This document shows positions 38,769 to 60,906 of a stretch of DNA of 64,000 nt, one piece after another. This DNA is from Poecilobothrus nobilitatus (taxonomy: Eukaryota > Arthropoda > Insecta > Diptera > Dolichopodidae): NCBI GenBank assembly GCA_947095535.1, contig OX352772.1, positions 37,095,445 through 37,159,444 on the forward strand, read 5' to 3'. Numbering within the stretch: position 1 is the first letter of the stretch; each line of letters opens with the position of its first letter. Made by a program: the position numbers and the translations under genes. Under the pieces are notes generated by a model. That model was not told where the DNA came from and did no database searches. It worked only from the letters and a program-made list of their open reading frames with translations.

Positions 38769-41700
38769 ATGTCGTCAAGAAAAAGAACTTTTGAAGGTGT
38801 AAGAATAAAGGATAATGACGTTACATATGAAAATACTTCTGATGAATCTAATTTAGAACAACTGCAGAAAAAACGATCAAATATTTTACTAAGCTTACAT
38901 GGTGGATTGTACCAAATTAAGTTATTATTGTTGCATCTTGTATGTGGTGTACGAAAAGAATACTCTTTTCGTTTGAGCACTGAACTGAAAGAAGCCAAAA
39001 AATTTGATGACATCATTTTTGAAATAGTGAAAAATGGAAATACACAATATTGTCTTATGCAAACAAAACACAAGGAAGATCAGTCCAAGATGATAAAATT
39101 AAATAACGATTTACTTCACGGAAATCTTTCGAAAGGTGATTACACCTTACTTAAATATTTCTTTTCATATCAAGAATGTAAAGATGAAGAAATTTTCAAA
39201 GATGGTAAAATCAGAGATATTATTCTTTGCACAAATATTGATTTTGATTTGGAGACAAAAGTTGCTGAAAAATATAGCGGTGATTCCATTACAATTGAAG
39301 AAATAGTAACAGAGATAAATTATAAAGATGACATTTTAAACTTTAAACATGAAAACTTGGTAAGAAAACCTCGTTATTATAAATTCAATGAAAAATTATT
39401 TCCATACTTCAAAACAATATTGGAGCGATATCTTGTAGCAAGATTGACTAAATGTTTATTAGAGAACAACCTTGTAGATCACATATCCAAAAATGATGTT
39501 TTTCATATTTATCACAAACTTTTGGTCGAAGAAGTCATTGATGTTGAAAATAAAAAATTTTATGGCAAGTTCATAAGAAATGAAGGAATATCTGAAGAAG
39601 CCCAAAGATTAAAAAAACTTTTGGAGAGTGAAGTTAAACTTACATCAAAACATTCGCTAACATTAGAAAAAATAAATGACGAAATTTGTGGAGAAATGGT
39701 AAATAAAAACAAAAAAGTTAAAATAAATTCTTTACATGCTTATAAACAAGGTTTTAATTTATCTGAAGGATTTGGATTCGAAAAAAATACAAATTCTCCG
39801 AAAAATGTTAATTCTGAGTCTTTTATAAAGGAATTTTTTGATCGTTTAGTGTTTGCAGTAAATCAACCTAATGAGGAAGAATTAGATCAAATAATAAAGA
39901 ATCACATTAGTAAGGATTTTGATTATATTTTAAAGGATATAGAATTTGATGTCATACTTGTTAAAATGCAAAACTGGGCAAAAGGACAAGGAGGTGAATT
40001 CCTTTCATACGAAGATGGTAAAAATTGGCTAAAAAATTTTAAGCCAAGCCTAATTGGAATTGTAAAATTAATTATTGAATCATCAGAGCTTAAATCTAAA
40101 ATTGAAAACTACAGGGTCTTTTTTAAATATCATGTCATTGCGAAATTAGATTTAAACAATTTTCTTTGCTTGCAAAATACAACAATACAAATTTTTAACA
40201 TTTTATCAGAGGAATGCGTATTAACTTGGGTTAAAGTGTATCAAGTTTTAAAAGAAATGAAGGGAGCTCAAAACAATTATTGTTTTATGCGATTGAAAAC
40301 TGTTTTAGAAAATAAAAGTGACCTTATCACAGCTTTTAAAGATCACGATTTTGTTTTAGTAATTGACTGCACAACTGAAGAAAGCAACAAAGAATTTCAT
40401 ACCATGTTTGATGATTTATTCAGTATGATTCAACAAAATAAGAAAAAGAAAATTATTCTAATAAATAAACCAGACAATATTTTTATTAAAATAAATAAAA
40501 GCAAAATAATTGACAAATATCACGAAGTGGTAGATGATGAGAACAATTTTATTGATCTTGAAAATGATTCACAAGAACAGTTGCTGCAGAATAGTAAAGT
40601 TATATTTCAAGGAAAAGAACTAAATTTGGGTGCATTAATAGAAAGTATAGATTTAGAAAATTTAATTGATAAGTTTACATTATCAAAATTAATAAATAGA
40701 GAAGAAATAGAAATTGGCAAATCCTTAATGGATTTAGAGGATGTTAAAAATTATTTTATTAGTAGAACATTCAATCGGCAAATTCATATTGAAGAAACAT
40801 TTAAAGTAGATGGACGTTTTGTGGTTATTGAATTTTTTGAAGACATCTGTAATATAAATATTCTATCAGAACAAGATATAATAATAATTTCTAATGAAAT
40901 AAAAATTTTTGAAAAACTATGTAAAGAGTACAAACAATATAACATACATTGGCTTAAATCGAAATCTGAAGGTTTTGTATGGGAACGAACTTACAATAAT
41001 TTGTCTAAATTACGTAAATACTGTCATGATTCTGCCTCTCACTTTCAAATGAATATCAAAGATTTGAATGATAAAATAGTGATTATAGCTGGAGAACCTG
41101 GTATGGGTAAAACAACGATATTAACCGAAATAGCGAAAACAATAAAAAATATGAATCATATTAATTGGATTTGCAGAATAAATTTGTTAGATTGCTCTAA
41201 TCAATTTTCTATATGGAATCAAAATGGTGTTACTGTTAAACAAACCCTAGAATTCTTATTTAAAAATATTTTATTTCAAAAATTGAATGATAATATAACG
41301 GAGTTTGTGAATATAGAGGACAATTATCAAATAAGAATAACGAAAGACAATGTTGACATAAAAGGAACTGATTTACTAGAATTGGGATTGTTTATTCAAT
41401 ATTACAATCAAGGCAAATTAATCCTACTTTTTGATGGATTTGATGAAATTGCTCCCGATTACAAAGAAATTGTTATTGCTTTATTAAAATATTTTAAAGC
41501 AACCCAATTATTTGATTTGTGGATAACTACCCGAAACTATAACATATTAAATGAATTAGAAGATGAATTAGGAACATTTTCATATACATTGGAACCATTT
41601 TCCAAGAAAGATCAAGTAAACTTTTTACAAAAATTTTGGAAATATAAATTAGGATTGAACGAGCTATATACTAATAAATTTATTCCTTTTTCTAATCAAT

Positions 41701-43949
41701 TATTGAAACAGATTTCTGAAAGTATTTATTATCAGGGCATCCCTTTTTTATCTATACCACTGCACATTTGTATGGTTGCTGAATGTTTCGAAGACGTATT
41801 TAGATTATTTTACGCATCCAACAGCATTGAACTATCTGATGATCATAAAAGACAACTTAACAAAAAAATGAATTTAGCCACTTTATACAAAACGTTTATT
41901 AAAAAAAAGTTTTATGATATTTTACATGGTGATATAAATGAATCAAAACCAGCTAATCGAAGATTACTTCTAAATAAATATACTAAACTTCTCGAAGATC
42001 ATACGAAGTTAGCATTATATAGCATGTATTCCATAAAAGATTTTAAAAATATGTTTCCAGGGCAAAAAATGGGAGATATATCCAGTTTATTAGAAAAAAT
42101 AAAAATTGGTAGTGAAAAGACAGGAATAATCATAAAAATTGTTGATGGAAGACCTTTTTTTGTACATTTAACTTTTGCTGAATATTTCATTGCTAATTTT
42201 ATTTGGGAGAAGTTTAAGTCAATTCCACAACGGAGGGTGAAACATTTTGTTAAAATCGTTATAATTAAAAATCTTATTGCTGATAAAAAAGTTCAAATTT
42301 GTAATTTTTTACAATCAATTGCAAGAGAAGATTTAGAAACTAATATTTCTCTTAAAGACAAAAGTTTTAAGCTCAATTATCTATTTGAATCCCTTTGCCA
42401 AAACTTTTGTTTAAATGAAGAACTTCCTTCTAAAAAAACAAAAAATTCCACTGATTTACTTTTTAATATAATTGAATCATCTCTTAAAATGGATCAAAAT
42501 TACAATTTAAACACTCTGGGAAATTTTCATAAATTAGAAAGTAAACAAAAAATGACATTATTAAAAAATTTTGCAGAAAGGGGATATACCAAGATTATTC
42601 CTTTCTTAACTAATACATTGGAAAAATTTGATTTGTATTCAGAAGTATTTGTTGGAGGTTGGATTAATAGTTCTCTTTTTTTGGCTTTATTTTTTAAAAA
42701 TTTTGAAACAGCACAAGTTCTTGTTACGGAATGTAATTATGAAACTACTTGGGTTGACTCTTATGGAAGTGATTTAATAAAATTTTTGTTATGTAATCGT
42801 AATTTTGACATTCTTAAACGTTCTTTTGAATTAAATCTATTGGAATATGAGACTAGTAATTCAAGAGAAATAAAGAAGTCAGTATTGATTGAATGTATAG
42901 AAATTGGTGCACCAAAAGATTTAATAAAGCTTATAATTAAAAAAGCAAAATGTAATATTATTAAAGATGGATTTACAAATGCATTCTCTTTCAATTTATT
43001 CTATAAATATGATGAAGAAATAATTCAACTTTTAATCGAATATGGCTTTAACTTCACAAAAGTTTTTAAAAACTTAGAACATGATTTTTTTAATATTGAG
43101 AACATTTTAAACAATTTTGAGTATAATAATAATGTTTTCGAAAAAATTGTACTATTATTAAAAGGCGGGACAGTATTTTCTGCAGATCTGTCAGAGTTTT
43201 TATTACAAGCATATTCCATAATTGAATTTTTAGCAGTAGCGTTTGAATTACATGACTATGAAAATGATGAAAACTGTAGGATAGAAGATGAAATCTTTAA
43301 ATTAATTATTGACTGTATAAACAGATATTCTGAAAATAAAAATGTTCAAATTAGTTCATTATTGAATTCTGATTATTTGCACTATCAAATGGATAAGAAG
43401 ATGAAAATTTTGCCAGATTATATGGTAGAAATATATAAGCTATTTAATTCTCTTGAAGAAAAAGATTTGAACAAATTTATAATAGAAATTAATAAAATCT
43501 TAAACGATATTAACAAAGAAGCTCTTAATTATTGGTCAGAAGACAGTAATCTTAGAAGATTAGCTATGGAAATGGTATATTATTTTAAACTAAATATTGG
43601 TGATAGTGATATTGAAATAGCAAAGGAAGGGCTGAAAAATGAATTATTAAAATTTAAGGATTTTAGAAAAAGATTACAAGAATATGAAATTTTAAAGGAA
43701 GGTCATAATAAAACAGAATTTGATACGGTTAATAAAATTTTTCGTTTATTTAACATTGAAAAAATTGATTTGAATCAAGAATTAAAAAATTTAGTAAAAA
43801 GGGTCTTTGATTATGGTGGTATTAAAATATTATTTGACATATGGGAGAAATTAAGAATTTTAAATAATAAGGAAAATTGGTTAGAACAATTTACTCAATT
43901 AAGAGATAAATCTTCAAAAGCAATTGATCTTATACAAGATTATCTTTAA
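38769..43949 (+). CDS. PD-(D/E)xK nuclease-NACHT-ankyrin-like STAND protein, copy A
   Basis: Single exon, 1726 residues from the ATG at 38769; the frame also runs back to a GTG at 38760, which insects would not use. Residues about 44-130 fit the Cap4/DUF4297 type of PD-(D/E)xK nuclease: HGGLYQIKLL, E72, FDD (80-81), then Q98-T-K100. A middle region (about 200-770) is unassigned; FVLVIDC and KKIILINK look like Rossmann-type strands. NACHT: Walker A GEPGMGKT 775-782, Walker B LLFDGFDE 886-893, sensor ITTR ending at R922, and P997 in IPLHICMV. Residues about 1285-1430 look like degenerate ankyrin repeats, followed by a helical end. No signal peptide or membrane segment. STAND ATPases oligomerise on sensing a ligand and activate the N-terminal effector, so a cytosolic DNA-cutting immune sensor is inferred. 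All key motifs are intact. Codon use is strongly AT-rich like the neighbourhood. Confidence 0.85.
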   Translation: MSSRKRTFEGVRIKDNDVTYENTSDESNLEQLQKKRSNILLSLHGGLYQIKLLLLHLVCGVRKEYSFRLSTELKEAKKFDDIIFEIVKNGNTQYCLMQTKHKEDQSKMIKLNNDLLHGNLSKGDYTLLKYFFSYQECKDEEIFKDGKIRDIILCTNIDFDLETKVAEKYSGDSITIEEIVTEINYKDDILNFKHENLVRKPRYYKFNEKLFPYFKTILERYLVARLTKCLLENNLVDHISKNDVFHIYHKLLVEEVIDVENKKFYGKFIRNEGISEEAQRLKKLLESEVKLTSKHSLTLEKINDEICGEMVNKNKKVKINSLHAYKQGFNLSEGFGFEKNTNSPKNVNSESFIKEFFDRLVFAVNQPNEEELDQIIKNHISKDFDYILKDIEFDVILVKMQNWAKGQGGEFLSYEDGKNWLKNFKPSLIGIVKLIIESSELKSKIENYRVFFKYHVIAKLDLNNFLCLQNTTIQIFNILSEECVLTWVKVYQVLKEMKGAQNNYCFMRLKTVLENKSDLITAFKDHDFVLVIDCTTEESNKEFHTMFDDLFSMIQQNKKKKIILINKPDNIFIKINKSKIIDKYHEVVDDENNFIDLENDSQEQLLQNSKVIFQGKELNLGALIESIDLENLIDKFTLSKLINREEIEIGKSLMDLEDVKNYFISRTFNRQIHIEETFKVDGRFVVIEFFEDICNINILSEQDIIIISNEIKIFEKLCKEYKQYNIHWLKSKSEGFVWERTYNNLSKLRKYCHDSASHFQMNIKDLNDKIVIIAGEPGMGKTTILTEIAKTIKNMNHINWICRINLLDCSNQFSIWNQNGVTVKQTLEFLFKNILFQKLNDNITEFVNIEDNYQIRITKDNVDIKGTDLLELGLFIQYYNQGKLILLFDGFDEIAPDYKEIVIALLKYFKATQLFDLWITTRNYNILNELEDELGTFSYTLEPFSKKDQVNFLQKFWKYKLGLNELYTNKFIPFSNQLLKQISESIYYQGIPFLSIPLHICMVAECFEDVFRLFYASNSIELSDDHKRQLNKKMNLATLYKTFIKKKFYDILHGDINESKPANRRLLLNKYTKLLEDHTKLALYSMYSIKDFKNMFPGQKMGDISSLLEKIKIGSEKTGIIIKIVDGRPFFVHLTFAEYFIANFIWEKFKSIPQRRVKHFVKIVIIKNLIADKKVQICNFLQSIAREDLETNISLKDKSFKLNYLFESLCQNFCLNEELPSKKTKNSTDLLFNIIESSLKMDQNYNLNTLGNFHKLESKQKMTLLKNFAERGYTKIIPFLTNTLEKFDLYSEVFVGGWINSSLFLALFFKNFETAQVLVTECNYETTWVDSYGSDLIKFLLCNRNFDILKRSFELNLLEYETSNSREIKKSVLIECIEIGAPKDLIKLIIKKAKCNIIKDGFTNAFSFNLFYKYDEEIIQLLIEYGFNFTKVFKNLEHDFFNIENILNNFEYNNNVFEKIVLLLKGGTVFSADLSEFLLQAYSIIEFLAVAFELHDYENDENCRIEDEIFKLIIDCINRYSENKNVQISSLLNSDYLHYQMDKKMKILPDYMVEIYKLFNSLEEKDLNKFIIEINKILNDINKEALNYWSEDSNLRRLAMEMVYYFKLNIGDSDIEIAKEGLKNELLKFKDFRKRLQEYEILKEGHNKTEFDTVNKIFRLFNIEKIDLNQELKNLVKRVFDYGGIKILFDIWEKLRILNNKENWLEQFTQLRDKSSKAIDLIQDYL

Positions 43950-43979
43950 ATATACAATGATCTTATTTTAACAATAATT

Positions 43980-44340
43980 GAAATAATAACCGGTTACTTT
44001 CAAGAATTCACAAAAGTCCATTCACAAATTATTAGAGCCTAATATTTTAAATTCAATTACATATTAATAAGAGTATTAATAAAGATCGAAATCTATATTG
44101 CATTATGCTGTACATAAAGGTAAGGTGGAAGATCGTAAGATTCTTTTATTATTTCAATCAACTTTTACTAAGAAAATTACCAAATATACATACATAATTT
44201 CTCTTTTACTAAACAATTTAACAGAAATATAATATTATTAAATTATATTTAATTATAATTAATAAAGATAATTGTTAAAAGTACTTTTAAAAATTACTTT
44301 CAAATCGCACTTATTTGCAGCTTCAAAAAAAAAAATTGTA
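43980..44340 (+). pseudogene. Decayed ankyrin-repeat tail 3' of copy A
   Basis: After the stop codon, shifted frames still read ankyrin text: ILHYAVHKGKVE at 44085-44120. A stretch at 44281-44330 aligns with the paralogue's LHIASF repeat at 61150-61200. It aligns in nucleotide sequence with the 3' flank of copy B. Stops and frameshifts prevent translation with the gene. Confidence 0.6.
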
Positions 44341-44399
44341 TATTTAATGCTGGGATCGATTAATTAAAAGAAAAATTTTCTTTCGGAAAGTTTTTTTTC

Positions 44400-44540
44400 A
44401 GAAAGATCAAAATAACACAAAAAATTTTGTAATCATAATTTTATTTGTATTTAATTTCAAATAAATATTTGTTAAAGTTCTTCTGTTTTTATTTTAAATG
44501 AAATAAATAAATTTAAACCTATAAATTCTTTAAATGATGT
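44400..44540. terminator. Possible polyadenylation region and end of duplicated unit A
   Basis: AATAAATAAATTTA at about 44500 is shared with copy B (61665-61680). An AAATTCTTTAAAT block just after it matches AATAATTCTTTAAAT near 61700. Similarity is lost soon after on both sides. Confidence 0.4.
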
Positions 44541-44559
44541 AGCCTTGTAGTAAGTTTAA

Positions 44560-45000
44560 GAAAAAACGAGGAAGAATACAGTTGCCTTTGTTAACACTTA
44601 GATACCCGTAGGAACTCTTTAGTATGTTCATAGCCTGTCACTCTGTTTATAATATTATTTTTTTAAATTTTTTAGTATTTTAAAATAATTTGGATGAATT
44701 TTATAATTTCTAGAACCATGGGTTGTACATATATTCAAACTATATGTTTATACATTCTAACCATAACGATTATCAATCCGAAACCTTTCCAAATATGCTA
44801 TAGTACCATTTAATACTAAGCGGCAAATGTATAATAATTTATACTATCTATGTATGTATTATATATCATTAATTCATCAGTGACATATTATACGATATGT
44901 AAATAAACATGAGTTGTATACTAATATCATATAAATATAAATTCTTCAAGCAACCGTTATTTTATTTATTGAATTTTTTAACAGCTTTTATTGAACTTAC
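44560..45000 (+). repeat. Dispersed repeat, copy 2 (copy 1 near 5.13 kb)
   Basis: Same orientation as 5130-5850: GAAGAATACAGTTGCC, TTGTTAAC, ATACCCGTA, and later GCAACCGTTAT. Shorter than copy 1 by internal deletion. Confidence 0.45.
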
Positions 45001-45688
45001 TCGTGGTTAATGGAATCGTGGAATCTTGCAAGCTATTTTAGACACTCTTCCCCTTAAACTAGAGACTTGAAGTTTTGGACACAGTTTAAATTCCGTTGAT
45101 AATACATGATTCTAAAATAATAATACCAAAAACCAGTAGAGAAGTTAACTAAATTAACAAAATAATAAAATTTTCTTACAATGATATTACAGATTTTTTA
45201 ACAGAATTATTAGAGAGTAAAATAAAAATATGAAATGTGTGTTTCTTGTTGCCTTTAAATATAGAGAAAACTAAATCTTATATACATACATAATATAATC
45301 TTATACATTTAGTTTATACATTTTTCTCTTTCATGAAACACACAAACAAAGAAACGGCAATTATTTTTAAATTTTTCTTTGTTGCATTATATATATGTAT
45401 ATTATTATGTAGATATCTAATTTTTATGTTAACAAGAGTAATAGGTTTTTTCTTTACAATACATGCGATTTAAGCACCTATAATAGAATTCGATGATAGG
45501 TATCTAAAAACGTAAATATACGTATACATACATACATACATACATATACATATGAAGTTAGCATTAAGCTTAATACATATTTAATCTGTAAATCATAAAA
45601 ATTCGAAAGATTAAAAGAAAATATTCACACATACATACATTCATATTCACTTTTATCCAAATTCACTTTTTTGAAATATGCATAGTGT
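45001..45688. other. AT-rich spacer with (CATA)n microsatellite
   Basis: A CATACATA run lies at about 45524-45546. No gene. Confidence 0.5.
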
Positions 45689-45696
45689 ATCCACAC

Positions 45697-46395
45697 CAGT
45701 GATGGAATTTCGAATTTTTTAACTGTATTGAATCAAATATTGTACTTTTTTGAGGCCAATTGTACTGAAAAACTTTTGGTTTTAGTTATTTGACCAAGTT
45801 ATGAAGTTCTAGGTTAGTGCTTTTAATAGATTACACTTTTTGGCTATTTTGGTCTTTTTATTACCCAGAGTAGAACAATTATTCAAAAGTAAAATAATCT
45901 TTAATTTTTTCAATTATATAACAAAAACACCAAAATAGCCAAAACTTGTAATCCGTAAAAAGCTCTAAAGTTTAACTAAAAAAACCTGAATGGTAAAAAT
46001 TTTTCTTTTTCATAAACGAAATATGTACATATTTTTTAATCCAGGAGATCATTTTCAATCATATTTTCAATATTGTCAGTATTTATTGTTTGGAAAAGAA
46101 TATTTCTTGCAGCTAAATAACTGTAGTAGTAAGTTAAATTGAATTTACTTCAATAAATCTCTCGTTTGAAGCGGAATCTGTACTTACAGTTAAGCTATTT
46201 TGTAACTTTGTTTTAATTAAATTTTGGACTAATATTTTGTTTATTTTTATACCAAAAAATGAATAAAAGTAGATTTTTATTGAAATGATTGGACTTAAAT
46301 AGAATTGTACTAAAATTTAGTAGAATGTATTGAATGTATTTTACTTTTTTCATTGTATTGAATTTGATACAATTGTATTGAAAATTCCATCACTG
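45697..46395. mobile_element. Complete 699-bp hAT-type MITE
   Basis: Ends with CAGTGATGGAATTT and its inverted match AAATTCCATCACTG. Flanking octamers are ATCCACAC (45689-45696) and ATTCACAC (46396-46403), an 8-bp target duplication with one mismatch. CAGTG ends plus 8-bp duplications are the hAT signature. A second inverted pair lies inside: TTTTTGGCTATTTTGG near 45840 and CCAAAATAGCCAAAA near 45930. No coding frame. Confidence 0.8.
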
Positions 46396-46403
46396 ATTCA
46401 CAC

Positions 46404-46699
46404 GTCCCTGAGTAAACATTTTATGTTTAAATAAAATCATATGCATACTTATATGCATTTGGTGGTTAAAAAAATAGACACTGTTTATTTCTATAGGTAT
46501 AAAAAATTAAATTCGTAAATTGTAATTTTAATTTAAAACACTACCCAAAAATTTTATGCGACCAAATTTACAAAATATAAACATACCAACATATACATAC
46601 ATATGTATGTATTATATAAAGAGCTTCTGAAACTTTTAATTTACGTAAATATCAAAAATAAAACATAAAATTCTAATAAAAAATACAAAAATTCGAATT
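46404..46699. other. AT-rich spacer
   Basis: TACATATGTATGTA-type sequence near 46600. No gene. Confidence 0.5.
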
Positions 46700-46749
46700 T
46701 AATACAAATTGAATCTAGATACCTAATACTTTATATACTACTTATATAC

Positions 46750-49700
46750 AACGTTGCCGTAAATGACAACTATGGTTGTCAAAAAAATTTTTATTATTAG
46801 CAAATGACAACTATTGTTGTCATAAAATAAATTGCCTGTAAATATTTAATAATTTGCTATCCCTACTATTTTGATATTTTTTTATTTAGAGATACATATT
46901 ATTATTTTAAATAACTGGCAACATTGCCCAAATTTAAATTAAACAACTGGTATTTTGATATAATTTGGGGAGTTCCCTAAATCAAATAAACAAAATACAA
47001 CAAAATCAAATGACAACAACAGTTGTCATAATTTCATACAAATTTCTTCAGTAAGTAAAAGTATTTGTTTTTGAGTGGACGTTAGTTTTTTTTTAAAATT
47101 TTTTTTGTGATACGTTTATTTATTTTCGTTGTGTTCTTCTAGTTTTTTTTTATTTGAGTAATTAATTTATTTGTTATATCTTTTTTATATACGGTAAGGA
47201 GCTAGATTTATTTCTTTTATGTATTTGCAAACCAATTTGGTGTGTTTTTTTTTAAGAAAATGAGCTTCGAGGAGAATTGTGTGATGAAGAGGAAAATTTG
47301 TGCAATTTAGGCTCTGATTCAGAATTTGAATCTGATGCTGATATTTTTGCTGATGATGGAGAATATGGTGATGATCCCAATTATCAACCGTACAGTTATA
47401 GCCATAGCGAGGATTCTGATATTGGTGTCCCTGATAATAAACGTGATTTTGAGGACAGCACCAGTAAAGTATGTGCCAGTATGTGTCAATAGAAAATGAG
47501 AATTTTGGAAACAACAATGAAGTCGTCAGCAACTGGACACAAGGTACTAAAGAAATATTAAAATTTCCGTTCAACGATAATGAAGCTGGAATAAAAATTC
47601 ATGTTTTTGCAAATTCCAGTCCTAGCGATATTTTTGATTTCCTATTTACATATGATATAATTGAAAGGCTAGTTAAGTGTACAAACAACTATAGAAATAA
47701 TTTATGTAAAACCCAAAACGCCAAATTAACTTCACGCTCAACAAAAAAAAAATCATTTAAGGAAACAAATAAAGCTGAGTTGTTAAAATTTATTGGATTG
47801 TGCCTAGTATTCGCCATTTATTCACATTACACCCGTTATATTTCAATCCAATTTTCAAATTTACTATGTCAGGCTTACGCTTTGAAAATTTACTAAGATA
47901 CTTTAATTCCCACAGTACGGATGAAAATAATCAAGATAATGAAATAAATATTAATAAAATTTCACCAATAGTAAACTGCTTTATAAACAATTTTCAAATA
48001 GCTTATAAACCAAATAAAGCCCTTTCATTAGACGAGTCTCTTCTTCTATTCAAGGGACGCTTACGCTTTCGGGTATATAACAAAGGAAAGAAAGCGAAAT
48101 ATGGTATTAAATTTTATTAGCTTACAACTCATGATGGGTATGTACTAAATATGGAAATATATCAGGGTCAGCATGCAGGAGAAACTGACAGAACTACTTC
48201 AAAAAGACGGAATTTGGTGTTTCGTCTTATGCAACCGTATTTAAATAAGGGGCACTACTTATATATGGATAATTATTATAATAGTGTCGCCTTATCTGAA
48301 GAGCTTCTAGAATACCAAACACACACGGTCGGAACTCTTCGTGCAAATCGTAAAGAAAATCCAAAAGACGTTGTCAGTAAAAAACTTAAGACCGGTGAGC
48401 TAACATGGCTAAGAAAAGGAAATGTGTATATGTCTCAAAATGGAAAGACAAACGTGATGTACTTTCAATTAGTACAGCCCATCATCCGGAATTAATGGAA
48501 ACTGAAAACAGATACAAACAAAAAAAAATTAAACCTGTGGATATTATCGATTACAATTCCAATATATCGGGTATTGATCGGTGCGATCAAATGATCGCAT
48601 ACTATTCGACCCCGCGAAAAACATGTAGGTGGTATAAAAAGGTGATTTTTCATCTGATAGACATGTGTGTTTGGAACGCTTTTTATATTTATAAGCAATT
48701 CCACGAAAAAACAATTTTTTTGGAATTCAGAGATATGCTTATACTAACCTTAATAGATCTTCCAACAAATATAACACATGGTACAAAATTAGCTGCAGAA
48801 ATGAATTTAGTTGGCCGGCCACGCAAAAGAAGTCAAGGTCAATGTTCTCCTGTTTCGTCGTCAGCTTGCCCATCTCCTTCTACACCATCAGTTTACGCTT
48901 TTTCACCGTTAGTTTTTCCGTCTACTTCAGCATCACCTGAAACTTCTTCAACAGTCTTAAATCCATCATTTGTTCAACATTTTATAGAGAAAATAACACC
49001 ACCAAAATGTTCCAAACGAAAAACACATTTCTTGCGCTGCAGACACTGTTACAAACAAAAGAAGCGATCCTGTACATCTAATAGATGTAAAACGTGCCCA
49101 GATAAACTCCCTGTGTGTATTAAATGTTTCGAAGATTTTCATAATAATTTAAACAATTAATTCAAAAATATTCAAAGACTAATAAATTTTTAATTTTTTT
49201 TATTATTTTGAATTACGAATTTTAATGTTATATATATAATATAAGACTGAATTGGTTTTTTTTTTGTTCTATTATTTTGTTTTGTTTTTATAATTTTAAA
49301 ATTTAATTTATTCTGTTGTTCCTACTAAAAATCGAATATCAAACAAATTACTAAACTTTTAATTTAAAAAATTTTTAATTTTTTGATTTTTTGTAATATG
49401 ATAATATGATTTGTATTAAAATTTTAGAGTTTATTTTTTAATAATTACTACCTATTTATTATAAGTCTGAATTGATGTTGAATTAAAATGAAATTAAATA
49501 AAAAATGGATATTTAAAAATAATATCAAAATATGTTTTACTATAAAAAAATTTGTATGAGCCTAATATCAAATTGAAAAATTTGACTACTATAGTTGCCA
49601 TTTGCTCAGAACTATATTATTTGCCCCTTATTATAAAAATGACAACAATAGTTGTCATGACCACTATAGTTGTCATTTGAAATATAACTCATATTACATT

Positions 49701-49960: not shown

Positions 49961-50197
49961 ATAATTATCTATTATAATTTTATTTTAATTATTATTAATT
50001 TAGATTATTATAATAACAGTATAATTTCTAACTTAAATTTTATTTTATCAGTGTAGGTACCTATACTAAAAAAAAACTGCCACCCAAACTTCCAAACAAA
50101 ATTTTTAATAAATTAAATACATATGTATGTATAAATAATTTAATAAAATCCACCAATCTAATTCAATTTAAAAATTTTTGCACCCTCATTTATCACC

Positions 50198-50320
50198 TAT
50201 AATTATAATTTAGTAGTTTTCAGCCACACACTACGTATTATGAATTCCGTTTCAAGCTTTGAACGTCAGTAACTACATATTTTTTACGATTTTTCTACTA
50301 TAAAACCTATACGTAATGTT
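50198..50320 (+). repeat. Dispersed repeat T, copy 2
   Basis: Direct copy of 27664-27800. Confidence 0.6.
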
Positions 50321-51500: not shown

Positions 51501-51556
51501 TCATATTCATATTCTATACTAACTCAGTATAAATATATAATATGATTTATCATATA

Positions 51557-53019
51557 CAGTCTGTCAATTAATTCTTTGCAAAATGAAAAAAATATGATAA
51601 AATTACTTTATATTTTAATTTTAATGGTAGTAAATGAGCTATTATTCAAGTTTTTTTTACATTAATCTTCTTAACTACAAATATTTCTTAAAAATTAAGA
51701 AATTAAAAGTTTAAAAATTATTTCAATATAAAAATAAAAACAACAATATTAAAAAAAAAACAAAAAACTTCAATAAAATAGTTTGTCAATTAATTCTTTG
51801 CAAATCTTAATATCTACTAATTAAATATTTTAAAATAATTTATTTTTTTAATAGAAAATTGTTTTTAATATTTAGTGTGGCCACCTTTAGCGTCGGTCAC
51901 ATTTTCTAGTCTTCTTTCATCGATTCTATTAGTTTCGGTAAGTCATAATCGTTGGGAATTTTTGACCATTCTTCAATAATGTAGTTTTTTAGGTCATTTT
52001 TGTTTTTTGGCTGTCTTTTGGCAACTTTTTTTTTTAAGTAACACCCGTACCTTTTCGATAGCGTTCAAGTCAGAGCTTTGCGCTGGAGTATCGATAACGT
52101 GCGGACAATTATATAGCAACCAGCTCTTTACTATATATGATTTATGTTTAGGATCATTGTCTTGATAAAATTTGTAATGTCCTGTAAGTCTAAATTTATC
52201 AACGCTGGTAAGCAAATGATTCTTAAAAATATTTAAATACTGATATTTATCCATTTTATCATCGATAAAAACAATATCCCCTACACCCCGACTTGAAATA
52301 CATGCCCAAACCATTTCAGAAAGTTTTCCAAGTTGGAATGGTATTTTTATTATCAAAGCTTTTAGCGGCTTTCTCCATACTCTAACCGGACCTTCATTAT
52401 AATAAAGCATAATTTTTGTTTCGTCGCAAAACACGACATCTTCGCAATAGCTATCAGTTTTATTTATATAGTTTTTGGCAGATAAAAATCGTTTTTCTAT
52501 ATTTAAACGTGGTAACAGAAGTTTCTTTCTTGCACTTCTAGATTTATATTTATTTTTTAATAGTACTTTTCGAACAGTTTCAAAACAAATTTTTACTCCG
52601 CTTTCATTAATCACCTCTGCTGCTTGTTTGATTTTCCATCCACACGAGGATTTTCATAAATTTTTTTTATTATTTTCCTTTCATCTTTTGCCGTTAATTT
52701 CTTAGGTCTACCTTCTGAATTTTTTAATTCTATTCTCTACTCTTTTTCTGCTCGCTCGATGATATTATAAACTTTTCTGAGCTTTAAATTGTACATCTGC
52801 AATATTTCTTTGCCGTTTTGCCTTTGTAGTATTGAAAATAAATCACCTGTATCACATTACCCTCAGTTCTTGTGCCGGGCACTTTAAAATTTTATTCTGT
52901 TTTATTGTTATTAGTACTAAATTTCTACCTAAACTGATCGAAACATCAAAAAAACTAAGCAAATTTATAGTCTAATTTTATTAAAAAATAATTTAACGGA
53001 ATCCAAAATTCAAAACATC
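51557..53019 (-). mobile_element. Tc1-family element with IR/DR-type left end, nested in repeat U
   Basis: The left end starts CAGTCTGTCAATTAATTC after TA. A second copy of the TGTCAATTAATTCTTTGCAA word stands 219 bp further in (about 51783), the direct-repeat-in-inverted-repeat layout known from Sleeping Beauty-like Tc1 elements. The matching right end is not seen. The right boundary is placed where repeat U resumes (about 53020). Confidence 0.65.
51865..52830 (-). pseudogene. Tc1-like DD34E transposase, frameshifted
   Basis: Minus-strand frames spell a full Tc1 protein. An N-terminal piece has GRPKKLTAKDERKIIKKIYE, the linker before the second helix-turn-helix. The main frame (51994-52614) has the first Asp in VVFCDETKI and the second in YQDNDPKHKS. 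The Glu is in SSDLNAIEKV, with 34 residues between the second Asp and the Glu. After another frameshift near 52010 the C-terminus reads DLKNYIIEEWSKIPNDYD and ends GGHTKY at 51865. Stops and frameshifts near 52720, 52620, 52010 and 51920 inactivate it. Confidence 0.88.
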
Positions 53020-53155
53020 GCTATCTCAAAAAATACTACTATGATTTACGAACTAATAAAAAGCAAGTACTAAAAAGAAAGAAAAAATTAATATGCAAAT
53101 ACATAGAAAGTCGTGTAAAAAATGCATATGTGGAAGAAATTTTGATAAGCTGTAT
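53020..53155 (-). repeat. Dispersed repeat U, copy split by Tc1
   Basis: Reverse complement of 28261-28410. The remainder of this copy lies left of the Tc1 element near 51510-51545. Confidence 0.6.
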
Positions 53156-53999
53156 TTCCTAAACTGACATAAAATTAAAACGGTAAAATTTTTGTTAGCA
53201 GATTCAATATTAATCTTATGTACATATGTTTGTTTACAGTTTTTATTATTTTTTACTTCTAATATTTTTGCTTTGATATAAATTATTATGTAAAAAATCT
53301 AGAAATTTTGGCATTGCACTTTTCGTGTAGTGGCGGTCGGTCCTGTGGTGGACGCACCTGATTTTTTTTTAAATATTTTCAATAAGAAAACATAAAAGTC
53401 ATACGTAATACCAGTACGTATTTAATCAGTATTGTATAGCTTAAGTTTGCTTATTGATTTAGCGATAATAAATATGTATATGTTTTTTTTATAATATATT
53501 TTCTTGATAAAATTATCTGCATATATGTACATATGTATGTAGGTACCTAATCAAAAAAAACAGACATTTTTTTATCAGTAAACTTCGAAAATCGAAACTT
53601 AAAAGCAATAAGTTCTCTTAATACAAAGTAAAAAGTTTTTTTTTTGTAAATATTTTCAAAATTATTTATTTTTTAACAAAATAGTTATTAAAAATTAATT
53701 TTTGTTTTAAATTAAAATTTCTTATAATTAATTTACGTCATAAATTAAATGTAAGTTGAATTGTTGATTTCGTTATAAAAATTTCGTTTCATAATGTTTA
53801 AAATTAAATCTAAATTTTTAAATAATACCAAACCGGATAAATTTTTTCAATATACGAGTATGTATGTATAAACATATTTCAATGGTATAATAAAATAAAA
53901 GTGTATAATATATAACAAAGTACGCCCGTCTGTCTGCACGTGAACTGAAAAAATATTGGATCTAGTATTTTGAATTATTTGTTAAATTATTATTTATAG
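53156..53999. other. AT-rich spacer
   Basis: Nothing recognised. A GTGGCGGTCGGTCCTGTGG patch at about 53330 is the only GC-rich part. Confidence 0.5.
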
Positions 54000-54430
54000 C
54001 AGTGCCGGGTTCGTGTAGCTGCTATACATTTGAGCATAAGTCAGTGCCTAATTAACCTGTATATTTACCATTTTATCACAAAAAGTTAAGATTTATACCC
54101 AAGACTTTTGTAACATTTTTTTGGTTTAAAGAGTCAGATTCGAGTATCTGTTATATATTTCTTTTATATGAGCATAGCTTCGTGTTTATATAGATGCAGC
54201 ATATTTATTATTTTGTAAAAAGAAGTGAATTGTTATGTCAATAACTTTTGTAAAATTAGGTTAATTTAATACAACAGGTTCGGGTAAATGTGAAATTTAA
54301 ATGCTTATATTTTGGTAATGTAAAAAGCAAAATACCATCTGGAAGATGATCAAATTATAGCAAGAATTTCTGTAAAATTTGATTGGTCTGACGTAACGGA
54401 GTCAAGTAGCTATCATACAACTCCAAATTT
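54000..54430. repeat. Degenerate tandem repeats, about 130-bp unit
   Basis: Three and a part units. Each begins near a GG.TCG.GTA.CTG block, passes an ATTT.AGCATA region and ends ACTTTTGTAA.ATT..GTT. Probably transposon-derived. Confidence 0.45.
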
Positions 54431-54555
54431 ACATAAATCTTTCTCAGTTATACTATATTTTATTGGTACGGTTATCCTACATTTCCAAATTATTAGAAGT
54501 TATTGCTTAATATTTGAAAACGTTAATTTTAATATTTTGTTAATCTATAAATAAC

Positions 54556-55300
54556 AAGGCAGAATATGAACCAACGGTTTTTAAAGGCGCACATTTCCAA
54601 AAGACAACACAAACTGTTTAGAATTGTAACTTGCACCAAAATTTGAAAATTTTCTTAGAATTTGATATAATAAAAAAAAATGTTAAAAATAAAGAGACCC
54701 TCTTTCTAAATTTTAAGCGAAATCTATACATAATTATGAAAATCCATTAATACCTGTAAAATTATAAAGTTGAAGCCTTAATTTTTGCCTTTTATTTTAA
54801 AAAAAATTGTGTAGGTACCATTACAGAATTTTAAATATAGGAACATTTCACTTTCTAAGCCCTAACAGTCCTTAAACAGGACATGGTACAAAAAAATTTG
54901 CTGAGGAAACTTATAGTAGCTCTAAAAGTTCTTTCTTATCTCAAAATTTCAAGTCTCTATCTGAAAGCTGATACATTTTGTTTTCCCTTAACGGGATTTT
55001 AAATACTATAGATTTAAAAAAACTTGTATAATTTTGATATTGGTTGAAGGTAAAAAATTCCGAAAATGACGTTTTTAAATTGAAAAAATCTTAAGCAGAA
55101 CCTGAGATATAAACATTTAAAAATAGGCCTTTTTCATAGTTTGAGGCAATGTAGCTTCGTAATGGATAAAGCTGTTCCCTACATGATAAAGCTGTTCTAC
55201 AACATTAATTTTTTTGTGAGACCTACCCGTGATTGAAATTTCATTCTTCAATCTTTAACGGTGTAGAAGTTTTGTAAGCAGAGGGGACGGACAGAGTGAA
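54556..55300 (-). repeat. Dispersed repeat R copy upstream of the second NACHT gene
   Basis: Same orientation and position relative to the gene as the copy at 37750-38610, and closer to it in sequence than to the 14.7-kb copy. It ends about 380 bp before the start codon. Confidence 0.7.
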
Positions 55301-55640
55301 ATTAATAAGATTTATAATTGACTGTTCCAACGAACATAAGTTATGCTGTTACGCTAAAATTGAATCATCAAAGCCGTTGACCCAAACCAGCAAATTTCAC
55401 AGATGTTATTTCAATAAAACTCGATCATCTTTTAGAAAATTTCAGATTTTTATAGCTTAACTAAGTAACACGATATGACAGCTACTTGAACTTGTTGCTC
55501 TAATTAAACCAAATTTCTCCAAAGTAATTGAATACAACGCGAAAATTTTATCTTCTTTTGTTCTTATACGAATGAGTTTTATTCGAGTAGGGTTAGTAAA
55601 TAAAAAACAAAAAAATTTATTTTGATTTATATATATTTAA
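55301..55640. other. 5' flank of the second NACHT gene
   Basis: Longer than the matching interval of copy A by about 220 bp. The extra sequence (GACAGCTACTTGAACTT at about 55480) resembles GGCAGCTGCTTGAACTT at 20237, so another repeat is inserted here. Confidence 0.4.
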
Positions 55641-55677
55641 TTAATTATTTTTTATCTTTGTACAGTTGGCAAAAATC
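55640..55677 (+). promoter_or_regulatory. Probable splice acceptor before the second NACHT gene
   Basis: TTTTTTATCTTTGTACAG ends at 55665, twelve bases before the first ATG. This is a better acceptor than that of copy A (CAG rather than TAG). Confidence 0.6.
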
Positions 55678-58600
55678 ATGTCGTCAATAAAACGAACATT
55701 TGAAGGTGCAAAAAAATCTTTAAACACAGTTGATGATGTTGCATATAGAAATAATTCTGGTGAATCTAATTTAGAACAAAAGAAGCGATCAAATATTTTT
55801 CAATGCTTACATGGTGGATTGTACCAAACTAAATTACTAATGTTGTATTTTGTATGTGGTGTCCAAAAAGAATTCCCTTTTCGTTTAAGCTCAGAACTGA
55901 AAGCAGCCAAGAAATTTGATGACGTCATTTTTGAAACAATAGAAAATGGAGCAAAGCAATACTTTCTTTTACAAGCAAAACACAGAATAAAGCAATCTAT
56001 AAAAATAAAATTAAATAACGATTTACTTCACGGAAATCTTTCGAAAGGTGATTACACCTTACTTAAATATTTCTTTTCGTATCAAGAATGTAAAGAAGAA
56101 GAGCTTTTTAAAAAAGGAAAAATTAAAGATATTATTCTCTGCACAAATATTGATTTTGACTTGGACAGAAAAGTTGCTGAAAAATATAGTGGTGATTATA
56201 TTTCAATTAAAGATATAGTAACAGAGATAGATTATGAAAATGATATTTTAAATTTTAAAAATGAAAATTTAGAAAGAAAACCTCGCTTTTATAAATTTAA
56301 TAAAAATCTTTTTCCATACTTCAAAACAATATTGGAGCGATATCATGCAACAAGATTGACTAAATGTTTGTTAGAGAACCGCTTTATAGATCACACTTCA
56401 AAAAAAGATATTTTTCATATTTATCATAAGTTTTTAGCTGAAGAAATCATTGATGTTGAAAACAAAAAATTTTATGATAAATTTATAAAAAACGAGGGAA
56501 TATCTGAAGGAGCCCAAAGATTAAAAAAATGTTTGGAAAATGAAGTGAAACATGAATCAAAACATTTGCTAACATTAGAAAAAATAAATGACGATATTTG
56601 TGGAGAAATGGTAAATAAAAACAAAAAAGTTAAAATAGATCCTATACATGCTTATAAACAAGGTTTAAATTTGGCTGAAGGATTCGGATTCGAAAATACA
56701 AATACAAATTCTCCGAAAAATGATAATTCTGATTTTTTTATAAAGGAATTTTTCGAACGTTTAGTGTTTGCAGTAAATCAACCTAATGAGGAAGAATTAG
56801 ATCAAATAATAAAGAATCACATTAGTAAAGATTTTGATTATTCTTTAAAGGATATAAAATTTAATGCCATACTTGTTCTAATGCAAAACTGGGCTAAAGG
56901 ACAAGGAGATGAATTTCTTTCAAATGATGATGGTAAAAATTTGTTAAGTTTTAAGCAAAACTTCATTATAAGTGTAAAATTAATTATTGAAACATCAGAA
57001 TTTAAATCTAAAATTGAAAACGACGCCATATTTTTTAAATCTCATGCCGTTGCGAAATTAAATCTAAACAATTTTCTTTGCTTAGAAAAAACAACAATAC
57101 AAATTTTTAACATTTTATCAGAAGAAAGCGCATTAACTCGGGTTAAAGTGTATCAGGTTTTAAATGATATGAAGGGATCTCGAAACAATTATTGTTTTAT
57201 GCGATTGAAACGGGTTTTAGAAAATAAAAGTGATCTTATCACAGCTTTTAAAGATTATGATTTTGTTTTAGTAATTGACTGCACAACTGAAGAAAGCAAC
57301 AAAGAATTTCATACCATGTTTGATGATTTATTCAGTATGATTCAACAAAATAAGAAAAAGAAAATTATTCTAATAAATAAACCAGACAATATTTTTATTA
57401 AAATAAATAAAAGCAAAATAATTGACAAATATCACGAAGTGGTAGATGATGAGAACAATTTTATTGATCTTGAAAATGATTCACAAGAACAGTTGCTGCA
57501 GAATAGTAAAGTTATATTTCAAGGAAAAGAACTAAATTTGGGTGCATTAATAGAAAGTATAGATTTAGAAAATTTAATTGATAAGTTTACATTATCAAAA
57601 TTAATAAATAGAGAAGAAATAGAAATTGGCAAATCCTTATTGGATTTAGAGGATGTTAAGCGATATTTTATTAGTAGAACATTCAATCGCCAAATTCATA
57701 TTGAAGAAACATTTAAAGTAGATGGACGTTTTGTGATTATTGAATTTTTTGAAGACGTCTGCAATATAAATATTCTACCAGAACAAGATATAATAATAAT
57801 TTCTAATGAAATAAAAATTTTTGAAAAACTATGTAAAGAATACAAACAATATAACATACATTGGTTTAAATCTAAATCCGAAGATTTTGTGTGGCAACAA
57901 ACGCACAATAATTTGTTTAAATTACGTAAATACTGTCATGATACTGCCTCTAATTTACAAATGGATATGAAAGATTTGAATGATAAAATAGTGATTATTG
58001 CTGGAGAACCGGGGATAGGTAAAACAACGGTATTAACCGACATAGCGAAAACATTAAAAAATATGAATCATACTAATTGGGTTTGCAGAATAAATTTGTT
58101 AGATTGTTCTAATCAATTTTCTATATGGAATCAAGATAGTACTACTGTTAAACAAACCCTACAATTTTTATTTAAAAATATTTTACTTCAAAAATCGAAT
58201 GATAATATTATAATGGATTTTGTGAATATAGACGACAATTACAAGATAAGCTTAACGAAAGACAAAGTTGACTTAAAAGGAACTGATTTACTAGAATTGG
58301 GATTGTTTATTCAATATTACAATCAAGGCAAATTAATCCTACTTTTTGATGGATTTGATGAAATTGCTCCCGATTACAAAGAAATTGTTATTGCTTTATT
58401 AAAATATTTTAAAGCAACTGAATTATTTGATTTGTGGATAACTAGCCGAAACTACAACATACTAAATGAATTAGAAGATGAATTAGGAACATTTTCATAT
58501 TCGTTGGAACCATTTTCTGAGAACGATCAAGTAAACTTTTTACAAAAATTTTGGAAATATAAATTAGAATTGAACGAGCTAGATACTAATAAATTTATTC

Positions 58601-60906
58601 CTTTTTCTAATCAATTATTGAAACAGATATCTGAAAGTATTTTTTATCAGGATACAACATTTTTGTCTATACCACTGCACATTTGTATGGTTGCTGAAAG
58701 TTTCGAAGACGTATTTAGATTATTTTACGCATCCAACTGCATTGAACTCTCTGAGGAACATAAAAGCCAACTTAATAAAAAAATGAATTTAGCCACATTA
58801 TACAAAACATTTCTTGATAAAAAGTTTTATGAAATTTTACATCAGGATATAAATTTAACAATACCGGGTAACCGATGTTTACTAGAAAATGAATATAGAA
58901 AACTTGTTGGAAATCACACGCAATTAGCTTTACAAAGCGTGTTTTCAATTGAAAATTTGAAAAAGATGTTTCCGACTCGAGAGGTGAGCGATGTATCAAG
59001 TTTATTAGAAAAAATAAAAATAGGTAGTGAAAAGACAGGAATTATTATTAAAATTGTTGATGAAAGGCCTGTTTTTATACATTTAACTTTTGCTGAATAT
59101 TTCATTGCTAATTTTTTTTGGGAAGAGTTTAAATCAATTTCAGAACGAAGCGTGAAAGATTTTATTACAATCGTTATAATCCAATATCTAATAGCTGACA
59201 AGAAAGTGCAAATTTGTAATTTTTTACAATCAATTGCAAGAGAAGATTTAGAATTTAGAATTTTAGAAGAATACGAAAATTATAAATTTTATATGTTGTT
59301 TGAATTACTATGCCAGAAGTTTTTTTTAGATATTCCTAATATAACCATTTATGAAAATACAACTATGCCCATAGATTTAGTCTTTAATATATTAGAATCA
59401 TGGATCAAAATGGGTCAAAATTGTAATCTAAAAATTGTAGAAAATTTTCTTGGGTGGTTAGTGAACAAAGAACAAAGAAAAGAGCTGTTAAATTATTTTG
59501 CAAAACAAGGATATACAAAGATAATTTATTTCTTACGTAAAACTTTAAAACAATCACTTCCTTTTCATAATGCAATACGTTTTTATGATTGGACTGATAA
59601 TCCGCTTTACTTGGCTTTATATAATGAACACTTTGAAACAGCAAAACTACTTATTATGGAATACAATTATGAAACTACTTGGATTGATCCAAAAGGGTAT
59701 GATTTATTAACATTTTTATTACAACAACATCAATTTAATTTGATTAAACGTTGTTTTGAATTAAATCTCTTGAATTATAATACCAATTGTTTATTGAAGG
59801 AAAATAAAACAGTTTTTGTATACTGTATAGAAAATAGAGCACCAAAAGATTTAATAAAACTGATAATTGAAAAAGAAAAAGGTAATATTATTAAGAATGC
59901 AGATACCAATGATGCGTTCACTTTTAATTTATTCTATAAATATGATGAAGAAATAACACAACTTTTAATAAATAATGGATTTGATTTTACCAAAAGTTTA
60001 GAAATTATCACACGTGAAATTTTTAATTTGGACTTTTATATTTCAAAACGTTTTTATCTTAATAAACAAAATTATAACTGTTTTGATAAAATTACAATGT
60101 TACTTAGAAGCGACAGTATACAATTTTCTGTTGATATGCCAAAATTTTTATTACAAGCACAGTCCATTATTCAATTTTTAACTGTAGCGCATGAATCACA
60201 CGACTACGAAAATCTTGAAAACTGTTCATTAGATAATAAAATATTTAAACTAATTATTGAGTGTATAGATCGATATTCTGAAAATAAAATCTTTCAAATT
60301 GGTTTCAATTCGGTGTCAAATTCTAATTATTTGCAATATGAAATTGATAAGAAAGTGGAAATTTGGTCATATTATATGTTCAAAATAGATAATCTATTTA
60401 ATTATTCTAAAGAAAATGATTTTGATAAATTTATAGTAGAAACTTATAACGCTTTAAACGATATTACAGAAAAGAAACTTGATTTTGATTTAGAAGACAC
60501 TAATTTTACAAAACTAGCTAAATGGCTGGTAAAGGATACTAGAGAAAAAGGAAAAAACATTCATTTAGCAAAAGAAAAGGCCAAACAGGAAATCTTAAAA
60601 TTTAAGGATTTAAAAAACAGAATAGCAGAATTTCAAGTTTTAAATAAAATTAATGTTTCAGAAGCATATGTGACTGCTAATGAAATTTATTATTTATTAA
60701 ACATAGAAAAAATTAATTTAAATGAAGAATTACAAAATTTAGTCAAAAATGTTTTTGACTGTGGTGGTATTACAAAATTATTTGAGATATGGGAGAAATT
60801 AAGACTTATAAAAAATGATAAAAATGTGTTAGAACACTTCGTTCGATTAGGTGTTAAATCAAAAACAATTGATGTTATACAGGATTGTCTTAAAATTGTA
60901 GAATAA
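55678..60906 (+). CDS. PD-(D/E)xK nuclease-NACHT-ankyrin-like STAND protein, copy B
   Basis: Single exon, 1742 residues from the ATG at 55678; the open frame reaches back to a TTG at 55666 that only follows the presumed splice site. Nuclease residues: E73, FDD (81-82), Q99-A-K101 in LLQAKH. NACHT: Walker A GEPGIGKT 776-783, Walker B LLFDGFDE 888-895, sensor ITSR ending at R924. Ankyrin-like repeats follow, with LYLALYNEHFETAKLLIMEY around residue 1315. Colinear with copy A, with only small indels. The N-terminal half is very close to copy A, whereas the C-terminal third is only about half identical by eye. The Q-A-K form of the active site is nearer the usual Q-x-K consensus than Q-T-K of copy A. 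Both copies look functional. A role as an innate immune sensor-nuclease is inferred from architecture only; a role in control of transposons or endosymbionts is equally open. Confidence 0.85.
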   Translation: MSSIKRTFEGAKKSLNTVDDVAYRNNSGESNLEQKKRSNIFQCLHGGLYQTKLLMLYFVCGVQKEFPFRLSSELKAAKKFDDVIFETIENGAKQYFLLQAKHRIKQSIKIKLNNDLLHGNLSKGDYTLLKYFFSYQECKEEELFKKGKIKDIILCTNIDFDLDRKVAEKYSGDYISIKDIVTEIDYENDILNFKNENLERKPRFYKFNKNLFPYFKTILERYHATRLTKCLLENRFIDHTSKKDIFHIYHKFLAEEIIDVENKKFYDKFIKNEGISEGAQRLKKCLENEVKHESKHLLTLEKINDDICGEMVNKNKKVKIDPIHAYKQGLNLAEGFGFENTNTNSPKNDNSDFFIKEFFERLVFAVNQPNEEELDQIIKNHISKDFDYSLKDIKFNAILVLMQNWAKGQGDEFLSNDDGKNLLSFKQNFIISVKLIIETSEFKSKIENDAIFFKSHAVAKLNLNNFLCLEKTTIQIFNILSEESALTRVKVYQVLNDMKGSRNNYCFMRLKRVLENKSDLITAFKDYDFVLVIDCTTEESNKEFHTMFDDLFSMIQQNKKKKIILINKPDNIFIKINKSKIIDKYHEVVDDENNFIDLENDSQEQLLQNSKVIFQGKELNLGALIESIDLENLIDKFTLSKLINREEIEIGKSLLDLEDVKRYFISRTFNRQIHIEETFKVDGRFVIIEFFEDVCNINILPEQDIIIISNEIKIFEKLCKEYKQYNIHWFKSKSEDFVWQQTHNNLFKLRKYCHDTASNLQMDMKDLNDKIVIIAGEPGIGKTTVLTDIAKTLKNMNHTNWVCRINLLDCSNQFSIWNQDSTTVKQTLQFLFKNILLQKSNDNIIMDFVNIDDNYKISLTKDKVDLKGTDLLELGLFIQYYNQGKLILLFDGFDEIAPDYKEIVIALLKYFKATELFDLWITSRNYNILNELEDELGTFSYSLEPFSENDQVNFLQKFWKYKLELNELDTNKFIPFSNQLLKQISESIFYQDTTFLSIPLHICMVAESFEDVFRLFYASNCIELSEEHKSQLNKKMNLATLYKTFLDKKFYEILHQDINLTIPGNRCLLENEYRKLVGNHTQLALQSVFSIENLKKMFPTREVSDVSSLLEKIKIGSEKTGIIIKIVDERPVFIHLTFAEYFIANFFWEEFKSISERSVKDFITIVIIQYLIADKKVQICNFLQSIAREDLEFRILEEYENYKFYMLFELLCQKFFLDIPNITIYENTTMPIDLVFNILESWIKMGQNCNLKIVENFLGWLVNKEQRKELLNYFAKQGYTKIIYFLRKTLKQSLPFHNAIRFYDWTDNPLYLALYNEHFETAKLLIMEYNYETTWIDPKGYDLLTFLLQQHQFNLIKRCFELNLLNYNTNCLLKENKTVFVYCIENRAPKDLIKLIIEKEKGNIIKNADTNDAFTFNLFYKYDEEITQLLINNGFDFTKSLEIITREIFNLDFYISKRFYLNKQNYNCFDKITMLLRSDSIQFSVDMPKFLLQAQSIIQFLTVAHESHDYENLENCSLDNKIFKLIIECIDRYSENKIFQIGFNSVSNSNYLQYEIDKKVEIWSYYMFKIDNLFNYSKENDFDKFIVETYNALNDITEKKLDFDLEDTNFTKLAKWLVKDTREKGKNIHLAKEKAKQEILKFKDLKNRIAEFQVLNKINVSEAYVTANEIYYLLNIEKINLNEELQNLVKNVFDCGGITKLFEIWEKLRLIKNDKNVLEHFVRLGVKSKTIDVIQDCLKIVE

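Follow-up and report, generated by a model that had tools for sequence, protein, structure and literature searches.

In bacterial antiviral STAND (Avs) proteins the C-terminus is a TPR, and for nucleases of the Cap4 and LmuA type the switch is a cyclic nucleotide or a partner protein. NLR immunity is generally regarded as absent from insects. According to passages of the study of the DUF4297-HerA system, DUF4297 is switched by its partner protein HerA, and both in DUF4297-HerA and in Avs3 the pairing of nuclease domains accompanies DNA cutting (PMC11291478). Passages of another paper, from 2016, report that the N-terminus of the phage WO ankyrin/TPR protein gwv_1093 is common to mosquitoes, ants, beetles, a mealybug, a bee and a gammaproteobacterium (PMC5062602). 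The authors assign the related N-terminus to the phage WO eukaryotic association module and treat a NACHT protein of WO, which has arthropod relatives, apart from gwv_1093; by parsimony they favour transfer from arthropods to phage WO, calling the reverse plausible. The word "nuclease" has a count of 0 in PMC5062602.

Here we describe two genes found in a 64-kb stretch of DNA (the window) of the fly Poecilobothrus nobilitatus. We lean towards reading both as genes for insect switch proteins of the Avs kind, composed of a Cap4/DUF4297-type DNase, a NACHT like that of animal NLRs and a diverging C-terminal half which is presumed to be the sensor. The computed basis for this is the architecture, the predicted folds, the near-invariant candidate catalytic residues, the purifying selection on the conserved part and the repeated exchange of the family.

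The gene pair and its surroundings

Both genes are single-exon open reading frames and all their features given below are on the + strand. Copy 1 runs from 38769 to 43949 (ATG to stop, 1,726 aa, with a Pfam NACHT match) and copy 2 from 55678 to 60906 (ATG to stop, 1,742 aa, with Pfam NACHT and Ank_2 matches). The proteins are 71% identical (1238/1746 columns) and the duplicated DNA, 38725-44131 and 55630-61060, shows 82.7% identity over 5,486 columns. Since the GC content around the genes is 23-28%, frames of such length are not chance products, and the duplicated gene with two intact long frames of the preliminary description was confirmed. Reading by eye, a possible splice acceptor AG was seen 9 bases 5' of the ATG of copy 1 (38758..38759) and another 12 bases 5' of that of copy 2 (55664..55665). 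No further family members were found elsewhere in the window by tblastn with eight family proteins (E up to 0.01), and nothing was found by Rfam and tRNA scans.

The window is eukaryotic DNA. Besides the gene pair it contains a partial glutamine-dependent NAD synthetase at 8552-10294, with CN_hydrolase and NAD_synthase matches, as well as a THAP protein and transposase fragments, and bacterial contamination was ruled out by these NAD synthase/CN-hydrolase exons, the THAP protein and the transposase remains. Dead transposons had been claimed to surround the genes and they do: domain matches revealed a DDE_Tnp_1_7 fragment, which we take to be of piggyBac type, at 48405-49160, a Tc3-type transposase fragment at 51994-52614 (minus strand) and, below its cut-off, a presumably hAT-like DUF4371 match at 25705-26319 (minus strand). 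A repeat family of about 0.5-0.8 kb, whose members are 69-77% alike, is present at 14664-15521, 37972-38619, 54550-55309 and 63235-63709. It adjoins both gene copies on the upstream side, in addition to other sites of the window, and is possibly a short transposon involved in the duplication. At 18279-18840 there is also a short tandem array whose period is about 86 bases.

Between copy 1 and copy 2 the dN/dS ratio is 0.54 overall, at an overall dS of 0.29; like the regional values this is a pairwise ratio, from which it cannot be told which copy is constrained. The ratio is 0.41 for codons 1-1040, 0.35 for the nuclease core, 0.46 for the NACHT and 0.54 for codons 1191-1540, with dN-dS below zero at 95% in each case, and purifying selection on the conserved part (codons 1-1040) is significant. 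For codons 1541-1726 it is 1.31, the interval spans zero and there is no difference from 1. The selection proposed from the two open frames thus holds for codons 1-1040, where the ratio is well below 1, and not for codons 1541-1726. Positive selection of the C-terminus was rejected, as the ratios of 1.25 and 1.31 both have intervals that span zero. A constrained enzyme and switch with a loose C-terminus would be expected of a receptor whose ligand changes, but the C-terminus is just as well accounted for by relaxed constraint.

The ratio in the C-terminal codons, together with the broken ankyrin-like reading seen by eye 3' of both stops, might indicate that the genes are functionless, either recently acquired or decaying, and still open by chance of timing. 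However, codons 1-1040 are significantly constrained between the copies and two frames of more than 1,700 codons have stayed intact at the overall dS given above, and we regard this explanation as very improbable.

An identical tract of 381 nt, near codons 527-653, is located at 40347..40727 in copy 1 (bounds to within a codon) and at 57259..57639 in copy 2. The longest run in 2,000 shuffles was 75, in a test which ignores clustered constraint. Since the identity is far beyond the shuffled runs, the tract can probably be explained by recent gene conversion. The tandem copies, this identical tract and the diverging C-terminus, along with the fusion of a nuclease to a switch, would also suit a selfish or killer locus, that is, a toxin restrained by its own NACHT and C-terminal part and kept since its loss is harmful. 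Yet the family is widespread and repeatedly exchanged (see below), and we give little credence to this idea. The Avs-like switch protein is the reading that we follow in describing the domains.

Predicted nuclease, NACHT switch and C-terminal half

The pattern GG-x2-Q / E / DD / Q-x-K noticed in the preliminary description is present in both copies and, in the numbering of copy 1, its residues are G45, Q49, E72, D80-D81, Q98 and K100. The PD-(D/E)xK core, part A of the putative Cap4-type nuclease, comprises residues 35-230 of copy 1 (38871..39458; E72, D80-D81, Q98-x-K100), as judged from the motif and from homology to the copy 2 model, and residues 33-231 of copy 2 (55774..56370; E73, D81-D82, Q99-x-K101), as judged from the AlphaFold2 model, the motif and structure matches. 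A helical part B of the nuclease is formed by residues 344-447 of copy 1 (39798..40109, with FAVNQPNEEEL) and residues 346-449 of copy 2 (56713..57024; AlphaFold2 model).

The comparison of the N-terminal fold with Cap4/DUF4297 was a test set beforehand. The fold predicted by AlphaFold2 for copy 2 is of the Cap4/DUF4297 type, in which a PD-(D/E)xK fold carries the helical extension typical of Cap4, and the Avs3 nuclease is among its matches; an N-terminal fold unrelated to PD-(D/E)xK nucleases was ruled out by this prediction. Just one of the 119 Foldseek matches has E < 0.001, with a TM-score of 0.37, and Avs3 turned up in the second structure comparison only, while the best E in the viral structure library was 0.034. 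Pfam nuclease families matched none of the 10 sequences scanned and PADLOC families did not match the window's own N-terminal fragment, so that fold, relatives and motif are the basis of the assignment. For the nuclease part Pfam, NCBIfam and PDB sequence searches were unproductive; some relatives match, weakly, profiles of Cap4/DUF4297-type families.

In the 137 family proteins, window copies included, the catalytic D, Q and K of D ... Q-x-K are kept in 136, 137 and 137, respectively. These are, according to passages of PMC11291478, the residues mutated in the DUF4297 study. Three proteins have lost E or D: P0014 (Dinoponera quadriceps) lacks the E and one D, P0136 the E and P0137 (Apis cerana) one D, and they are perhaps dead-enzyme members or faulty gene models. 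Such losses might also be expected if the module were a scaffold, a nuclease fold that does not cut and is used for DNA binding or dimerisation, but all five conserved residues are kept in both window copies and in 132 others of the 137, which makes a scaffold improbable. The N-terminus is, on the strength of the model, better read as a Cap4/DUF4297-type DNase that would cut DNA.

The nuclease is followed by a middle alpha/beta region (copy 1 residues 448-760, 40110..41048, placed by the copy 2 model and with no Walker A seen; copy 2 residues 450-761, 57025..57960, from the model), which in copy 2 has only a loose, high-rmsd likeness to tandem AAA proteins. A middle alpha/beta region without Walker A is common to insect and symbiont NACHT members.

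The NACHT NTPase with its helical and winged-helix core corresponds to residues 761-1205 of copy 1 (41049..42383; Pfam, Walker motifs and copy 2 model) and 762-1210 of copy 2 (57961..59307; Pfam and model). The NACHT-type Walker A and B motifs, said earlier to be intact, are so in both copies, Walker A being GEPGMGKT at 775 in copy 1 and GEPGIGKT at 776 in copy 2, and Walker B, of the form hhhhDGxDE of NACHT STAND proteins, LLFDGFDE at 886 and 888, respectively. The HMM search proposed for this part gave Pfam NACHT scores of 32.0 and 33.1 bits, above the cut-off of 26.7 bits. Helical and winged-helix domains come after the NTPase, and NLRP3, NLRC4 and NOD2 align through model residue 771. Tandem AAA proteins score 10.6-12.1 against the model, yet with rmsd > 10 A. 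Among the PDB matches the nearest are animal NLRs, and the model of the central part corresponds to an NLR-type NACHT of animals.

From about residue 1210 onward the proteins are poorly defined and weakly ankyrin-like, and this is the presumed sensor half (in copy 1 residues 1206-1726, 42384..43946, as delimited by Pfam and dN/dS). Degenerate ankyrin repeats had been claimed for both proteins. They were recovered in copy 2, where Ank_2 passes its cut-off (30 bits vs 27.3, best stretch residues 1248-1330, 59419..59667), and not in copy 1, where no ankyrin family appears among the Pfam matches up to E 10. By eye, broken ankyrin-like words are found just 3' of both stops, at about 44080-44150 and 60990-61060, and the relative from Brassicogethes carries strong ankyrin repeats at its end. 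Given these two observations, the window genes may either have been shortened at their end or continue in a 3' exon; the ancestor may thus have been longer, or a further exon may be present.

Relatives in insects and endosymbionts

Protein searches yielded 19 relatives at E up to 1e-3 (about 8,000 candidates scored), 184 at E up to 1 (120 of these listed) and 26 at E up to 0.1 (again about 8,000 candidates scored). The best-matching protein among the roughly 8,000 candidates scored comes from the beetle Brassicogethes aeneus, with 34% over 97% of copy 2. The named insects among the relatives listed are a wasp, ants, bees, beetles (Brassicogethes, Onthophagus, Hypothenemus and Anoplophora), a stink bug, a mealybug, a fly and a lacewing, and the named bacteria are many Wolbachia, Cand. 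Mesenet longicola, which we assume to be a beetle symbiont, Rickettsiella viridis, Cand. Symbiodolus and MAGs that include a Midichloriaceae bacterium. The preliminary description would have been contradicted by nearest relatives that are transposon proteins; this origin was rejected, as no transposon name is shown among the relatives listed (19; 120 of 184), most of which are nameless. The precomputed domains of the lacewing protein P0023 include PF10683, presumably a transposase DNA-binding domain, which was absent from its best 25 families when rescanned.

Throughout the family the nuclease module is combined with NACHT, with NB-ARC and TPR, with ankyrins and sometimes with a leading OTU domain. 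The latter is annotated, in precomputed form, in P0007, P0015, P0026, P0069 and P0109, and was confirmed above cut-off in P0007. Wolbachia P0008 looks OTU-like by eye, with OTU absent from its best 25 families, and in ant P0064 the nuclease is preceded by a Ulp1-type protease domain (26.4 vs 20.7 bits). By alignment, the relatives that are full-length from nuclease to NACHT region are those of Mesenet, Symbiodolus and Rickettsiella. In Cand. Mesenet longicola (L003:2824-6054, on a 6,565-base contig) one ORF of 1,076 aa has its parts ordered as in the window proteins. Pfam NACHT passes in Symbiodolus P0119, stays below cut-off in Mesenet (23.0 vs 26.7 bits) and is not listed up to E 0.001 for the Rickettsiella member. 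Some members are found on Wolbachia contigs > 1 Mb, and the Rickettsiella viridis member is on a 1.58 Mb contig. At one Wolbachia locus (L002) a TPR/NB-ARC-type member adjoins secA, a gene named by eye. Two Wolbachia members gave no tblastn match in the phage collection, and three viral-contig scans and the first genome-contig scan gave no lead.

Quick trees were made with 81 and 37 rows; in the larger one, 6 label changes are required for the 35 labelled rows. The careful tree, unrooted, was built from these 35 labelled rows (18 insect, 17 symbiont), leaving out 46 rows without a named source; it needs four changes and a single insect clade was rejected (AU p 2.3e-55). When the symbiont rows on contigs < 12 kb (P0004, P0075, P0079 and P0113) were dropped, the reduced tree of 31 rows needed 3 label changes and the single insect clade was again rejected (AU p 2.9e-7). 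Insect and symbiont members interleave in the unrooted tree, and the family has been repeatedly exchanged between insects and endosymbionts.

The sole symbiont neighbour of the window's lineage is the Wolbachia-labelled P0004, which may be host DNA because its contig has 5,963 bases. Once it is removed the window genes are in an insect-only group of four, and therefore the crossing of the window's own lineage hangs on P0004. This Wolbachia-of-Pentalonia protein is 65% identical over 1,406 columns to P0003 of Brassicogethes aeneus, and the likeness reflects either a transfer in recent times or the mislabelling of a host contig as Wolbachia. The suggested acquisition from bacteria is accordingly narrowed to exchange within the family, which may have run in either direction, and for the window's lineage it hinges on P0004, its only symbiont neighbour in the unrooted tree.

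The symbiont members raise another explanation, namely that the genes are captured effectors of a Wolbachia-like or other endosymbiont, which act there on host cells and have in the insect a use other than that of an immune receptor. The large Wolbachia and Rickettsiella contigs, the Mesenet ORF, the protease domains in front (OTU as in P0007, Ulp1-type in the ant) and the place that passages of PMC5062602 give to the related N-terminus in the phage WO module are consistent with it. On the other hand, the NACHT is nearest to animal NLRs among the PDB matches, symbiont members need not be older, the same passages lean towards the arthropod-to-phage direction, and the window genes group with insects alone when P0004 is left out. 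Altogether we consider a captured effector unlikely. For the receptor that we favour, the original role may nevertheless have been attack and not defence, because symbiont members could be host-directed effectors and the ant has a Ulp1-type relative.

Proposed function and comparison with known systems

By analogy with Avs3 and animal NLRs, the NACHT would hold the nuclease domains apart in the resting state. A ligand on the C-terminal half, presumably derived from an intracellular microbe, a virus or a mobile element, would lead to nucleotide exchange and oligomerisation. This might pair the nuclease domains, as in DUF4297-HerA and Avs3, resulting in the cutting of double-stranded DNA, and the infected cell would be killed or arrested, or the foreign DNA destroyed. 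From the computed features we infer that the proteins act as DNases, oligomerise and sense a ligand, and that they serve in immunity against intracellular microbes, viruses or mobile DNA. Of the nuclease-STAND defence locus first suggested, the nuclease-STAND design is borne out by the predicted Cap4/DUF4297-type nuclease, the NACHT and the Avs-like order; its role in defence is putative, and the sensor half is only weakly ankyrin-like.

We tentatively suggest, as a possibility only, that the innate immunity of insects includes an Avs-like arm, in which NLRs with a bacterial-type DNase destroy DNA on sensing an intracellular invader, and that the genes belong to a pool traded with the very endosymbionts that they would police. 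As this pool would be traded between insect chromosomes and endosymbionts, host and symbiont would be armed with the same module. If true, the bacterial Avs design would have a direct counterpart in animals, a conserved and selected insect nuclease-NACHT protein whose effector destroys DNA and stands in place of a death-fold adaptor. A family common to Wolbachia, other endosymbionts and insects would gain a chemical meaning, and the exchange of immune receptors or weapons between host and symbiont would become testable.

The gwv_1093 family, as described in passages of PMC5062602, has a taxon range much like that of the window family, mosquitoes excepted, and likened by this description its N-terminal family is very probably the same. 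In the titles, abstract beginnings and passages of the open-access literature searched, the N-terminus is nowhere called a nuclease and insect nuclease-NACHT proteins are not described, and the same is true of passages of PMC11291478, PMC12948488, PMC11249213, PMC8195603, PMC12881547 and PMC12758981. These portions of the literature thus yielded no statement identifying the shared N-terminus as a Cap4/DUF4297-type nuclease, from which it would follow that insects have nuclease-NACHT proteins of Avs design.

Cap4 (CBASS), DUF4297-HerA, Lamassu LmuA and, more loosely, Hachiman HamA share with the window proteins the predicted fold and the D..Q-x-K pattern. However, these nucleases are switched by other molecules, whereas the window protein is one chain with its NACHT. 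With animal NLRs (NLRP3, NLRC4, NOD2) the NACHT, helical and winged-helix domains are shared, but a nuclease occupies the effector place. No death-fold families are among the Pfam matches of the window proteins, and Pfam gave no LRR family up to E 10, so they are not animal NLRs in the narrow sense of carrying leucine-rich repeats. PADLOC matched only mad8, in the NTPase, with no Avs model among the matches. Nevertheless the Avs order of effector, STAND NTPase and C-terminal repeat sensor is found in the window proteins, with repeats significant in copy 2 only, and the nuclease of Avs3 (structure 8dgc) matches their predicted N-terminal fold. They differ from Avs3 in being insect proteins, in having a NACHT of the animal NLR type and in a C-terminus that is weakly ankyrin-like instead of TPR.
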